The notes under the pieces were generated by a model. It made no database searches. It was given only the letters and a program-made list of their open reading frames with translations, and had not been told where the DNA came from. A stretch of DNA of 64,000 bases from Belliella pelovolcani (GTDB lineage: Bacteria; Bacteroidota; Bacteroidia; Cytophagales; Cyclobacteriaceae), in NCBI RefSeq assembly GCF_900156785.1, contig NZ_FTOP01000005.1:124001-188000 (forward strand), in the 5' to 3' direction. Within the stretch, counting starts at the first letter, position 1. Each line of letters starts with the position of its first letter. Shown one piece after another: positions 19,717 through 23,845 of the stretch. The translations under genes and the position numbers were made by a program.

Positions 19717-19746
19717 AAGCCTCTAACATTCATGGAGGCTTTTTTA
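19717..19746 (+). terminator. Terminator after the MscS gene
   Basis: AAGCCTC / GAGGCTT stem with an 11-nt loop followed by TTTTTATT. It overlaps the last bases of the convergent transporter remnant at 19744. Confidence 0.75.
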
Positions 19747-20271
19747 TTGACCTAAAATCAAGGCATAAATCATCACAGCAACAAAGGCTAATACTGGCCC
19801 CAAGACAATCATCAAGAGGCCTCCGCTTCTAAAACTTTTTTGTTCGATCATGCCTGTTGAGAAAGCAATGGCATTGGATGGGGTAGAAACTGGCAGTAGC
19901 AATGCGCAGGAGCAACTCAAAGCTACGATCAAAGGCACTGTAAAACCCCAAATACCAGGAAGTGCAAGTCCTAAGGGGACTAGAATTGAGGATGCAGCTG
20001 TATTGCTCATGATGTTGGAAATCAGAACTGCAATGATAAAAATCCCTACAGCAAAGGGAGGAATGGCTTCAGTTACCCACAAGCCAATGGCTAAAACCGA
20101 AAGAAAAAACACATAGTTGATGTCATCTGCGTATCCGAGTTCCCGGAAAAAATAACCAATCAGTAAGGCTAAAAGAAAATTACCCGTGAAAGTAGATGTA
20201 TTGAAAATCCAGCCGAGTTTTAGTTTCCGGTATAGTCGGATAGCTGCTTGTCTTGAATCATTGTAGGCCAT
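19744..20271 (-). pseudogene. SLC13/DASS-type anion transporter with large in-frame internal deletion
   Basis: 175 aa, while SLC13 (DASS) transporters normally have about 450-500. The N-terminal part through residue 80 looks like the first membrane helices, including the family phrase LWVTEAIPPFAVG (64-76). It passes directly into a C-terminal-half signature, SNIMSNTAASSILVPLGL (85-102), followed by LPVSTPSNAIAFSTGMI (126-142) and a final helix. About 300 residues between the two halves are missing, without a frameshift. Both Na+/substrate SNT-type sites cannot be present, so transport activity is very unlikely. No other parts of the gene are seen nearby. It may be a stable small membrane protein, but a decaying gene is more probable. 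Confidence 0.7.
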
Positions 20272-20381
20272 TCAAACTGTCATTGGTAAAGTTTAAAGAT
20301 AAATAATCCCTGAGAGAACATAGGGCATGTTTTGAAAAGTTATAGTAAACTTTTGATTTTGTCATTTAATAAAAGCGCTAT

Positions 20382-20933
20382 CTAACAAAATAGCTCTAAA
20401 AAAGCTTCAAAATCTTTGTTTAGCAATCCCCACCTGAACTCATGGTTTGGGGTCAAGTAGTCATAGCCTTTGAAAGTGTTTTTTTTAACTACTGGTCTTT
20501 TTGCTATTTGTGCCCCTAAGGTCCAGCCGTAGAATCCGATTTCTTGGAGCTTCTGATCAATCCAGCCAATGACTACATAATCCTTTTGGTTAGGCTTTTG
20601 CTCTTGTGGATAGCCATAAGTCCAGCGATCATTGGGTGGATTTGTTGTGCTTTTTAGCGCTACTTTGATGTCAATCACTTTGCCTGAAATCAAGAAATCA
20701 TAATCATCGGTATTTCTTTCTAGAAAAGAGCGCTCGTCTTTTTGATATGTTACCCCGCGCTGATCCAACCAATGCGCAAATGCCAATTCTCCAAGGCAAC
20801 CCCAAAGCGCTTTTTCAACGCGCTGTTTGCTATTCAAGCTAAACCTCGAATAAAGCCCATTTTTGACCATACCATTGGCCAATTCCAAAGCCGTGGCTTT
20901 GGCCTCGTTGTAGTTAAAGTCTCGTACTATCAT
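20382..20933 (-). CDS. Putative PD-(D/E)XK-type restriction endonuclease partner of the methyltransferase
   Basis: 183 aa, no signal peptide. The protein shows the spacing of a PD-(D/E)XK nuclease: an N-terminal helix with GELAFAHWL (E49), then D79 in DYDFLISGKVIDIK and the core D88-x-K90. It has no recognisable DNA-binding domain and no close family that I can name. It starts 46 bp after the end of the adenine methyltransferase gene, same strand, which is the arrangement expected of a restriction enzyme following its modification enzyme. The nuclease call is inferred from the motif and the context, not from a recognised family. Confidence 0.45.
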   Translation of the reverse strand: MIVRDFNYNEAKATALELANGMVKNGLYSRFSLNSKQRVEKALWGCLGELAFAHWLDQRGVTYQKDERSFLERNTDDYDFLISGKVIDIKVALKSTTNPPNDRWTYGYPQEQKPNQKDYVVIGWIDQKLQEIGFYGWTLGAQIAKRPVVKKNTFKGYDYLTPNHEFRWGLLNKDFEAFLELFC

Positions 20934-20979
20934 GTCTAAAAAAGTTTATATTGATGATAAATGAAGATAATGCTATCTC

Positions 20980-22404
20980 TTACTTCAATTCGTAATAAAT
21001 AAAGCCAGCATCATTAACCTTTCCTTTGAGTAATTGGCTTACATTAGTCACCCTCTTGTGGGTGATTTCAGAGATTTTGCGATATCCTGCTGCATAGGCA
21101 GGGCTATTCTTTTTGATTTCTTCTGGCAGTTGTACGCATATGTATTTTCTATTGCCTCCATCTTTTTCATTCATTTCCAAGATAGCTTGTGCCGTGGCAC
21201 CTGAGCCTGCAAAGAAGTCCATAAATACACCATTTGGATCATCAGAAAACCCGAACAGGTATTTGATCAAACTTGGGGGCTTAGGGAAATCAAACACTTT
21301 GGCTCCGAGTAGCTCAGTTAAAGATTTGCTCGCTGATTCGTTGGTTTCTACTCCGACTTTTGTGTTGATCAAGTTGGGCGGTACTTCTTCATCATAAGCT
21401 GTCTTTTCATAAGAGGGGCTGAGTTTGATGGTGGGGATATGTATGGTCGTTCCCTTTTGGATTTCAGTGTCTAGCTTGGGTTGTGTCCATTTGAATTTAC
21501 CCCTAAGTATGACCTCCTTGACGAAGACGCCATTATGTACTTCGGTATCCTCAAGGAGTTCTAGCGTGTATTTGTCTGTTTGGTAAGTGCCTTTTGGTAT
21601 CACCCTGTCTGGGATTTTAGTTTTTACCAGATTTTTAGGGAAAATTAATGTGTTGATTGCATTGCTCTGGTTGAGCAGTCCATTGCTACTAGGGCTGGTT
21701 TTTTTGATTCCCTTGAATTTTATCTTGTCTTTTACTTTCTGATAGCACAGGACATACTCTAAGACTTTCTTGCTTTTCCTTGAAAGATTGGCGGGGGTTT
21801 CGGTCTTTGCCCAAGAGAAGATGTCAATGAAGTTCTCCTCTCCATAGATTTCATCAAGTAGTAGCTTCAGATTAGCAAGTTCATTTTCATCTATGCTGAC
21901 AAAAATGACCCCATCATCTCGGAGAAATTCTCTACTCAAAATCAATCTGGGGTAGATCATTGATAGCCAATTGCCATGTAAAGTATCGAATGGATTATTG
22001 ACCTTTTTGTTTTTTTGAGCAGCAAACTTATCCGCATAGACAAAGCTCTCTGATCCAGTATTATAAGGAGGGTCTATATAGATGGCTTTTATGCTTTTGG
22101 AATAATGTTCTAGAAGCAATTTAAGGGCGTCTAAGTTATCGCCTTCAATGAAAATATTCTTGGATATGTCAGCATCAATTGATTTTTCAGCATTTAAAAG
22201 ATATTTAAATTCAGATCGGGTGTATGCCTGTTTTTTGGAGTTTTCTTTTCCCGTCCAATGTAATCCTGATTTTTCTCGGTTTTTGGTCTCTAAAATCTGT
22301 TTTAACTTTTTCAGATCTATTTCATTATTTAAAAATACCTCAGGATGATATTTTCTAATGATTTCCATAAGGCTTTCCATATTTTCAAAAGTAAACTGGA
22401 TCAT
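20980..22404 (-). CDS. Type III Mod-like DNA N6-adenine methyltransferase
   Basis: 474 aa. It is a beta-class N6-adenine methyltransferase: catalytic motif IV DPPYNTG at 111-117 precedes the SAM-binding FAGSG at 398-402. The N-terminus (LHWTGKENSKKQAYTRSEFK) and GDNLDALKLLLEHY resemble type III Mod subunits, which modify one strand of an asymmetric site. At 474 aa it is shorter than typical Mod proteins (about 600-700), and no Res helicase-nuclease subunit lies next to it; instead a 183-aa nuclease-like gene follows. The specificity region between the motifs (about 225-370) is the likely target-recognition part. It is not followed by a terminator before the nuclease gene. Confidence 0.88.
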   Translation of the reverse strand: MIQFTFENMESLMEIIRKYHPEVFLNNEIDLKKLKQILETKNREKSGLHWTGKENSKKQAYTRSEFKYLLNAEKSIDADISKNIFIEGDNLDALKLLLEHYSKSIKAIYIDPPYNTGSESFVYADKFAAQKNKKVNNPFDTLHGNWLSMIYPRLILSREFLRDDGVIFVSIDENELANLKLLLDEIYGEENFIDIFSWAKTETPANLSRKSKKVLEYVLCYQKVKDKIKFKGIKKTSPSSNGLLNQSNAINTLIFPKNLVKTKIPDRVIPKGTYQTDKYTLELLEDTEVHNGVFVKEVILRGKFKWTQPKLDTEIQKGTTIHIPTIKLSPSYEKTAYDEEVPPNLINTKVGVETNESASKSLTELLGAKVFDFPKPPSLIKYLFGFSDDPNGVFMDFFAGSGATAQAILEMNEKDGGNRKYICVQLPEEIKKNSPAYAAGYRKISEITHKRVTNVSQLLKGKVNDAGFIYYELK

Positions 22405-22587: not shown

Positions 22588-23775
22588 TTATAAATTTTGT
22601 ATCATCTTCAAAAAGGCAATCAAACCAATTACTTCCGTATCGCCCTTTATTGGAAACTGATCGGTGCCAGAGTATACTACAAATTTCTTTTTAGCTTTTA
22701 TATCTTCAGCAGCTGTGTGAAAGCCTGAACTGATACTTGGAGCAAGTGATTTTTTGATTTCTATTGCCCATACCGCATCTTCCGGCCCTTCCAATACCAG
22801 ATCAATTTCATTTTTATTGCTTGAGCGATAGTAGGATGCTTTCCAAGTAGATGGGAGCTGATTGAGGATGTTTTCTATCACAAAACCTTCCCAGCTTGAA
22901 CCGACGACAGGATTTCCAAGAAGTTGATCGAAGTTCGAAATATTCAGCAAACTATGCAGCAGCCCCGAGTCACGGATATAGACTTTAGGAGATTTGACCA
23001 ATCTCTTTTTTGTATTTCCTGACCATGGCTGGAGTTGACGAACCATAAAAAAATCTTGCAGTGTATCAAGATATGTTCTGATGGTAGTGTGACTCACTTC
23101 AAGACTTTTTCCTATTTCGCTTAGCACGGCTTGCTGACCATGATAATGTGCCAGCATTGTCCAAAACCGCTTCATTCTTGCGGCAGGGACTTGTGGACCA
23201 AATAGTGGGATGTCTTTTTCTACATAAGTAGTAATAAAGTCATAGCGCCAATCCCAGCTGTTACTGTCACTTTCAGCCAAATAGCTATCAGGGAAACCTC
23301 CTCTAAACCATAATTTTTCAAAATTGAACCCCAAAGAATCATCTTGATACAATTCCCAAGCGGTGAAAGGAGTGAGTTCTAAATACCTGATTCTACCAGC
23401 CAAAGTTTCTGAGGATTGCTGTAGGAGATCTTTTGATGCAGAACCAATCAGAAGGAAATGCCCTACTTTCTCGCCAGCTCTTTTGCGAATATCAATTAAT
23501 CCTCGTAGTGTCTTAAATAACTCTGGTTTTCTTTGAACTTCATCGATAATCAAAAGCTGATTTTCAAATCGTCTTAAATAGCTTTCAGCGTCATCCAGTT
23601 TGGCCAAGTCAGAATCTAGTTCTAGATCTAAATAATGAATCGGCTTGTCAATTGACTCACGTGAAAGCTCCAGCGCCAAAGTAGTTTTCCCGACTTGCCT
23701 TGGCCCAAGAATCACAGCAACTGGCATAGATATTAAGGCATGTTTTAGCTTGTTTTCAAGATCTCTCTTTTTCAT
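22588..23775 (-). CDS. AAA-family ATPase with DUF4143 C-terminal domain
   Basis: 395 aa from the ATG at 23775; a TTG four codons upstream would extend it, but overlaps a repeat element. Walker A GPRQVGKT is at 24-31 and Walker B LLIIDEVQ at 74-81. A winged-helix-like region at about 215-245 (VLSEIGKSLEVSHTTIRTYL) is followed by DUF4143, which carries a nuclease-like pattern E323-x-D325 and E339-x-K341 in NEIDLVLEG and WAIEIKKS. Proteins of this build are common, often duplicated, and of unknown function; links to toxin-antitoxin-like or mobile regions are often suggested. It is 183 bp from the methyltransferase gene and is preceded by a palindromic repeat cluster. Confidence 0.88.
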   Translation of the reverse strand: MKKRDLENKLKHALISMPVAVILGPRQVGKTTLALELSRESIDKPIHYLDLELDSDLAKLDDAESYLRRFENQLLIIDEVQRKPELFKTLRGLIDIRKRAGEKVGHFLLIGSASKDLLQQSSETLAGRIRYLELTPFTAWELYQDDSLGFNFEKLWFRGGFPDSYLAESDSNSWDWRYDFITTYVEKDIPLFGPQVPAARMKRFWTMLAHYHGQQAVLSEIGKSLEVSHTTIRTYLDTLQDFFMVRQLQPWSGNTKKRLVKSPKVYIRDSGLLHSLLNISNFDQLLGNPVVGSSWEGFVIENILNQLPSTWKASYYRSSNKNEIDLVLEGPEDAVWAIEIKKSLAPSISSGFHTAAEDIKAKKKFVVYSGTDQFPIKGDTEVIGLIAFLKMIQNL

Positions 23776-23780
23776 TTTGG

Positions 23781-23845
23781 CTTTCAATTTGCATCAAAAA
23801 TAAATAAATAATATGCAAATTGAAAGTTAGACTTTCAATTTGCAT
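23781..23845. promoter_or_regulatory. Operator-like cluster of ATGCAAATTGAAAG elements
   Basis: The perfect 15-bp inverted repeat ATGCAAATTGAAAGT / ACTTTCAATTTGCAT at 23813-23845 is separated by 3 bp. A third copy of the 14-bp element lies at 23781-23794, directly before the ATPase start codon, and a partial one (AATTTGAAAGTAA) at about 23868-23880. The elements sit upstream of the minus-strand ATPase gene and between it and the plus-strand DUF2237 gene. The position and symmetry suggest a binding site for a regulator, possibly the ATPase itself through its winged-helix region. Confidence 0.6.

Follow-up and report, generated by a model that had tools for sequence, protein, structure and literature searches.

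A shortened Type III-like Mod methyltransferase paired with a small predicted PD-(D/E)XK nuclease in Belliella: a candidate two-gene restriction–modification system

The window analysed here is a 64 000-nucleotide stretch of the Belliella pelovolcani genome (contig NZ_FTOP01000005.1). On its minus strand it carries a gene for a Mod-type DNA methyltransferase, followed 46 bp downstream by an open reading frame (ORF) of 183 amino acids. The features of the pair, in coordinates of the window, are the following.

20980..22404, minus strand: Mod-type beta-class DNA methyltransferase, 474 aa, ATG start, identified with PADLOC and phmmer
21307..21825, minus strand: target-recognition domain (TRD) of Mod, residues 194-366, with limits set in this analysis from the alignment
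20934..20979, minus strand: 46-bp intergenic gap between two genes on the same strand, probable two-gene operon
20382..20933, minus strand: small PD-(D/E)XK nuclease, 183 aa, ATG start, putative restriction endonuclease (E49, D79, D88, K90)

The positions, lengths and gap agree with the preliminary description of this DNA, which reported a Mod-like methyltransferase of 474 aa and a 183-aa protein after 46 bp. Mod and the small gene probably form an operon; the 12 nuclease/Mod pairs that are adjacent differ in spacing, the closest overlapping by 4 bp and the widest being about 108 bp apart.

The surroundings of the pair show several features of their own. At 19744-20271 the window codes for an SLC13-type transporter of 175 aa, compared with 474 aa in the relative L009, which corresponds to an internal, in-frame deletion of about 299 residues. 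A PAS histidine-kinase gene is missing at 20271-20382; in each of the five Belliella relatives this gene adjoins the nuclease, and in four of them it lies between transporter and nuclease. The search for PAS-kinase neighbours returned paralogues only. Upstream of Mod, at 22588-23787, there is a DUF4143/AAA_14 ATPase gene (PADLOC candidate PDC-S01), which is also found nearby in five of the six Belliella loci.

The window Mod carries the motifs DPPYNTG (residues 111-117) and DFFAGSG (residues 396-402), with the TRD between them. It matches the PADLOC profile MTase_III with an E value of 2.4e-116, against 1.5e-32 for the best MTase_II profile, and phmmer against proteins of known structure finds 6k0w (E 4.2e-54) and 4zcf, the EcoP15I structure (E 1.3e-45). 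By these matches the protein qualifies as a putative Type III Mod methyltransferase subunit. In EcoP15I, as described in PMC4490356, recognition is carried out by Mod. Its NTD spans residues 14-60, the MTase domain 62-262 together with 390-516, the TRD 263-384 and the CTD 539-644; through its CTD, one Mod subunit makes extensive contacts with Res. The alignment of the window Mod covers the NTD and the MTase domain and stops at EcoP15I residue 512 of 644, so the CTD used for docking Res is missing.

Thirteen of the 14 Mods that accompany a nuclease homologue are 448-489 aa long and, by length, too short for a CTD; the remaining one, at locus L053, has 608 aa and keeps the extra length. There are 25 other Mods in our trees, and 24 of them have 540-707 aa. 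The last one (L089:1474-2802, genome G390) has 442 aa and sits on a long branch. Neither a nuclease nor a Res is recognised in its flanks of about 1.5 kb, and it is possibly an orphan or associated with a different partner system. When a Mod profile was run against 291 genomes of the order, the seven best matches (678-737 bits) were all members of pairs, and the next match scored 385 bits. The comparison Mods in the trees are among the loci listed in this search.

Pfam, NCBIfam and PADLOC give no match for the 183-aa protein at E <= 1, and none was seen among the PDB sequences, where the nuclease profile gave the same result. In PHROGs the protein matches weakly phrog_13389, a phage family of unknown function (E 0.0014). 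The earlier remark that it belongs to no recognised family is thus borne out. Searches with the 14 members of the nuclease family gave one weak REase_II match in PADLOC (one member, E 0.025) and one match at chance level in NCBIfam, and no further Pfam or NCBIfam domain is seen in the nucleases scanned. At sequence level nothing was found for the window protein among plasmids and phages, or for the L053 nuclease among plasmids. The residues first proposed as the active site (E49, D79 and D88-x-K90) lie where they had been placed, and all 14 homologues contain the catalytic Glu, Asp and [D/E]xK; the spacing from Asp to [D/E] is eight residues in 10 of them and 11 or 12 in the other four. The MAFFT alignment places the [D/E]xK of Belliella a few columns off, as four relatives carry three or four extra residues before the motif.

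Structures were predicted with AlphaFold for the window nuclease (seven sequences; pLDDT 71.5, pTM 0.75) and for the L053 nuclease, a divergent member of the family (14 sequences; pLDDT 88.7, pTM 0.87). In the window model, E49 lies in helix 35-58, D79 before strand 80-82, and D88 and K90 in strand 85-93. Compared by VIA-align, the window nuclease has I-Ssp6803I as its top row (Z 9.6, rmsd 3.2, 116 aligned residues), with NhoI (Z 7.8), Hjc (7.5) and DpnI (7.3) in further rows, and the L053 nuclease is closest to I-Ssp6803I (8.0), DpnI (7.2) and Eco15I (7.0), with DXO1 and Rep15 lower down; these Z values are middling, and those below 8 may reflect a common arrangement only. Almost all rows shown are PD-(D/E)XK enzymes. 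Foldseek against the PDB gives no match at E <= 0.001 for either model; the best values are 9.7e-3 (NhoI) and 6.2e-2 (EcoRV), and the long lists for both also contain unrelated proteins. Families that do not appear in these structural lists may be similar as well. The 183-aa protein is predicted to be a nuclease of the PD-(D/E)XK fold, with an alpha-beta core and the residues on the expected helix and strands. The nuclease fold suspected in the preliminary description is upheld by the models of two divergent members, whose best structural matches in the PDB are known nucleases, at middling Z values and Foldseek E values above 0.001. As modelled, the pair would include what is typical of a Type II system, namely a separate endonuclease with a nuclease fold and an active site, and without an ATPase.

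Among the eight Belliella genomes drawn, six carry the pair, adjacent and in the same order, and the Belliella pairs occupy one common chromosomal site. That G108 and G143 lack the pair is little informative, the neighbouring MscS orthologue being missing there too. When 390 genomes of the order were searched with a profile, 15 gave matches at E <= 0.01. Confident relatives in the order occur in a second genus of the same family (four genomes), in another family (G441 and G393) and in G532. Mod lies just upstream on the same strand in all seven except G393, where about 4.2 kb holding other genes separates the nuclease from Mod.

The profile search of 395 genomes of the phylum added only G728. 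Its nuclease has no adjoining Mod and stands behind a mutS2-like gene. G728 was considered as a counterexample, a nuclease without Mod, and dropped when a search of the genome found a short Mod on another contig; this Mod has 473 aa and belongs to the group of eight TRDs discussed below. The assembly consists of 100 contigs and is rated 1% contaminated, and a foreign contig could conceivably still lie behind the unlinked pair. At the nuclease locus itself (L091:8196-13489), the start of the nuclease gene overlaps the end of the mutS2-like gene, and an apparent DpnII-type gene set, recognised by eye, follows.

In total, a confident nuclease homologue is present in 14 genomes, and all of them have a Mod: in 12 it adjoins the nuclease gene, in G393 it lies at a distance of about 4.2 kb, and in G728 it is on another contig. 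The pair is real, recurrent and partly unlinked. It had been allowed at the outset that the small protein might occur mostly without the methyltransferase; this is not the case in the 14 genomes, and the relatives found without an adjoining Mod are the more distant ones, on five phage contigs (L045-L049). Both genes of the pair are intact and under purifying selection: where dS can be estimated (one pair is near saturation), the Belliella pairs give dN/dS values of 0.07-0.12 for nuclease and Mod, compared with 0.02-0.03 for the neighbouring MscS gene. As these values go together with the recurrence of the pairing in distant genomes, the association is more than chance.

Four weak profile hits (G108, G513, G655 and G689) were removed before the count of 14. 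The hit in G108 is a frame with stops, antisense inside a lysS-like ORF, and that in G513 covers 52 residues within an 823-aa frame. Those in G655 and G689, of value as leads only, are nuclease-like ORFs beside other methyltransferases (hhalign E 1.4e-4 with a probability of 53%, and 6e-4 with 28%). Weak relatives of the nuclease are seen beside N6_Mtase-type genes at L056:8175-8720 and L057:8292-9014, the one in L057 overlapping a TaqI-like methyltransferase ORF. Going by the sequences of these two loci, the nuclease may be a more general restriction–modification (R-M) module.

Matches to the Pfam family ResIII are found in all 14 genomes with the pair and also in all 14 control genomes, because the family covers many helicases. 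In 10 of the 14 pair genomes, none of the matches listed (E to about 1.2e-8) is on the contig of the pair. The nearest listed match in G166 is about 8.3 kb from Mod, beside an apparent Type I hsdM gene, and on the large contigs of G205, G441 and G393 it is more than 40 kb from the pair. Methylases of the Mod kind are usually partnered by a large motor-nuclease, and the neighbours of other Mods, outside the pairs, match ResIII in five of the six scanned. The window pair appears to have neither of two attributes of a Type III system, a Res gene with Mod and a Res-docking CTD, though a Res from elsewhere in the genome could still be used in trans.

Upstream of the L053 Mod, in G532, lies an ORF that is cut by the start of the contig (L053:1-1137). 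It matches PADLOC mad8 (E 1.7e-36), the mad8/HerA-like ATPase of MADS, and reaches 19.2 bits with ResIII, below the cut-off of 22.5. Given this neighbour, the L053 locus may be part of a larger defence cluster. The ORF brings to mind the additional ATPase that PMC8259958 describes 5' of some Type III mod genes. The genome of the window has a further Mod locus (G000:C44:28402-32844; L024, L027), where a Mod of canonical length (673-674 aa) is followed by an HEC-01A-like ATPase and, further downstream, by a ResIII match in an 888-aa frame. This locus is probably a Type III system of the usual kind to which an ATPase has been added.

The TRD and the rest of Mod, here called the scaffold, were compared separately. 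Eight Mods (L014, L050-L055 and L104) constitute one TRD group. The TRD of L053 is 56-62% identical to six TRDs of the group, compared with 45-49% for the scaffolds of the same six; with L104 the two values are 53% and 52%. The L053 scaffold is nearest to Mods without a nuclease (54-57%), whose TRDs are only 19-30% identical to that of L053. In the TRD tree, the eight Mods lie on one side of a branch with an SH-aLRT value of 92, below the mark at which the tool stars a branch. The scaffold columns reject the eight-Mod grouping with an AU p of 0.001, a value that is indicative, as the group was picked after the identities had been seen and the result rests mainly on one scaffold change, that of L053. 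In the scaffold tree two longer Mods, L084 and L086, are interspersed with seven of the eight; ResIII follows L086. A single origin of the 13 nuclease-partnered Mods in the tree was considered and rejected: the whole-Mod tree has three label changes for nuclease partners, and one clade has an AU p of 0.03. Another Mod, that of L085, is not included in the trees, as its sequence is divided between two ORFs.

On these comparisons, TRD and nuclease seem to travel together in one TRD group. Since the type of nuclease seems to follow the TRD while the scaffold is exchanged, these data are most simply explained by a nuclease that fits the target sequence and not the Mod scaffold; indirectly, they favour a specificity common to REase and methyltransferase. 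Belliella is so unlike this group (TRD at most 20% alike, nuclease 18-24%) that a specificity of its own for the window nuclease is an extrapolation.

Relatives of the TRDs also occur in Type III loci. Outside Belliella, a profile of the Belliella TRD matched only G421 among 231 genomes of the order (E 1.5e-46). The G421 Mod, from an assembly that is 84% complete with 6% contamination, is interrupted by an assembly gap and a stop, and is 48% identical to the window Mod over window residues 162-460, TRD included. It is followed by a 978-aa ORF that PADLOC assigns to the Type III REases (1083 bits), and the contig shows no convincing homologue of the nuclease. A relative of the Belliella TRD is thus found in what, by sequence, is a Type III Mod-Res locus. 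More distant relatives of the eight-Mod-group TRDs occur on plasmids, 26-38% identical among the best 20 of 25 records, and in each of the four plasmid loci read, a gene annotated as a DEAD/DEAH helicase adjoins Mod. In 257 genomes of the phylum, the profile of this TRD group gave one strong match (G728) and eight weak ones. Two of the weak matches were read: one runs into a Res-like ORF, recognised by eye and cut by the contig end, and beside the other Mod neither nuclease nor Res was recognised. No relative of these TRDs was confirmed in viral contigs.

We consider it likely that the pair is a compact R-M system that works without a helicase, and in which a Type III modification subunit serves a Type II function. 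The preliminary description had proposed just such a two-gene system, with Type II-like architecture and a Type III-like modification subunit, and the predicted fold, the pairing and the truncated Mod argue for it. Mod would act as a dimer (Mod2) and mark one base, probably as m6A, in the sequence that it recognises. The cognate endonuclease would be the small PD-(D/E)XK protein, reading the same sequence by itself in the manner of Type II enzymes and cutting DNA that lacks the mark, with neither ATP nor helicase. We infer the dimer, the methylation chemistry, the cleavage and the nuclease's own specificity, as well as protection against phages.

If the mark is placed on one strand, as in the Mod-Res locus, an unmethylated daughter duplex would be open to plain Type II cutting. 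The same problem has been noted for the MmeI enzymes, and pairs of oppositely oriented sites have been suggested as an answer (PMC4081073). The window pair may likewise need paired sites, may rely on Mod for recognition, or may act at a site that carries the mark on both strands. The pair might then be a helicase-free descendant of Type III systems with a one-strand mark, in which the nuclease has replaced Res and cuts without ATP, and the daughter duplex is spared through two sites or through a complex of Mod and nuclease. We give this more specific proposal a minor chance; if true, it would represent a kind of R-M system intermediate between II and III that seems to have been put together repeatedly, on differing Mod scaffolds.

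Parts of the evidence can be read differently. A nuclease without specificity of its own could dock on the Mod dimer in a helicase-free Type III-like complex, and two such complexes would have to meet for cleavage. Such an arrangement would suit a nuclease of only 183 aa whose gene adjoins Mod in 12 of 14 genomes, as well as the relative of the Belliella TRD in a Mod-Res locus and the recognition by Mod in EcoP15I (PMC4490356). However, if recognition were due to Mod only, the TRD could vary freely under a constant nuclease, whereas the nuclease type tracks the TRD; moreover, the CTD, the known docking site of Res, is missing, and one pair is unlinked. We regard this complex as unlikely.

The presence of Mod in all 14 genomes, which represent four families and differing neighbourhoods, and the co-segregation of the nuclease with the TRD, that is, with sequence specificity, speak against a structure-specific or repair nuclease, similar to Holliday junction resolvases, that merely stands beside a solitary regulatory methyltransferase. 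The Hjc and RecU resolvases are indeed among the structural matches and similar phage proteins have no adjoining Mod, yet this explanation is very improbable. NhoI and Eco15I, methylated-DNA enzymes by their entry titles, are among the best structural matches together with DpnI, which acts on methylated DNA, and they bring to mind a modification-dependent (Type IV/IIM-like) nuclease that cuts DNA bearing the Mod mark. To cut the mark of its own stable neighbour would be suicidal, but both genes are intact and under purifying selection, and the nucleases scanned contain no further Pfam or NCBIfam domain; we find this possibility hardly credible.

A compact two-gene system of Type II function would suggest that Type III modification subunits may shed the helicase through loss of the Res-docking domain and take a small nuclease as partner, which would link Types III and II in evolution. 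With related TRDs in a Mod-Res locus and in this pair, the sparing of new DNA under one-strand marking becomes testable with two small proteins. The putative endonuclease family would be overlooked with the libraries used here, and such searches would report a lone Type III methyltransferase. Within the full-text literature searched, REBASE and most subscription papers lying outside this scope, no publication was recognised as describing Mod with such a nuclease. The parts are known; the combination and the nuclease family are apparently uncatalogued.

Among known proteins, the phage PD-(D/E)XK-like proteins (phrog_13389; L045-L049) have a similar fold and weak sequence similarity to the nuclease but, unlike it, no Mod beside them in the five loci. 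The pair resembles Type III R-M systems such as EcoP15I and EcoP1I (Mod2Res1) in the sequence of Mod, in the position of the TRD between motifs IV and X/I and in the occurrence of a relative of its TRD in a Mod-Res locus. It differs from them in that there is no adjoining Res, Mod has no CTD and a small stand-alone nuclease takes the place of Res. HinfI and RsrI are Type II R-M systems with a beta-class methyltransferase and a separate REase. The window pair is like such systems in having two genes, a separate small nuclease of PD-(D/E)XK type and no helicase, whereas its methyltransferase is a Type III Mod by profile and its nuclease falls in no curated family searched. Enzymes of the MmeI family (Type IIL/IIG) would share the problem of one-strand protection if the mark of the window Mod is asymmetric; in these enzymes, as described in PMC4081073, both activities reside in one polypeptide, whereas in the window pair they would be divided between two ORFs.
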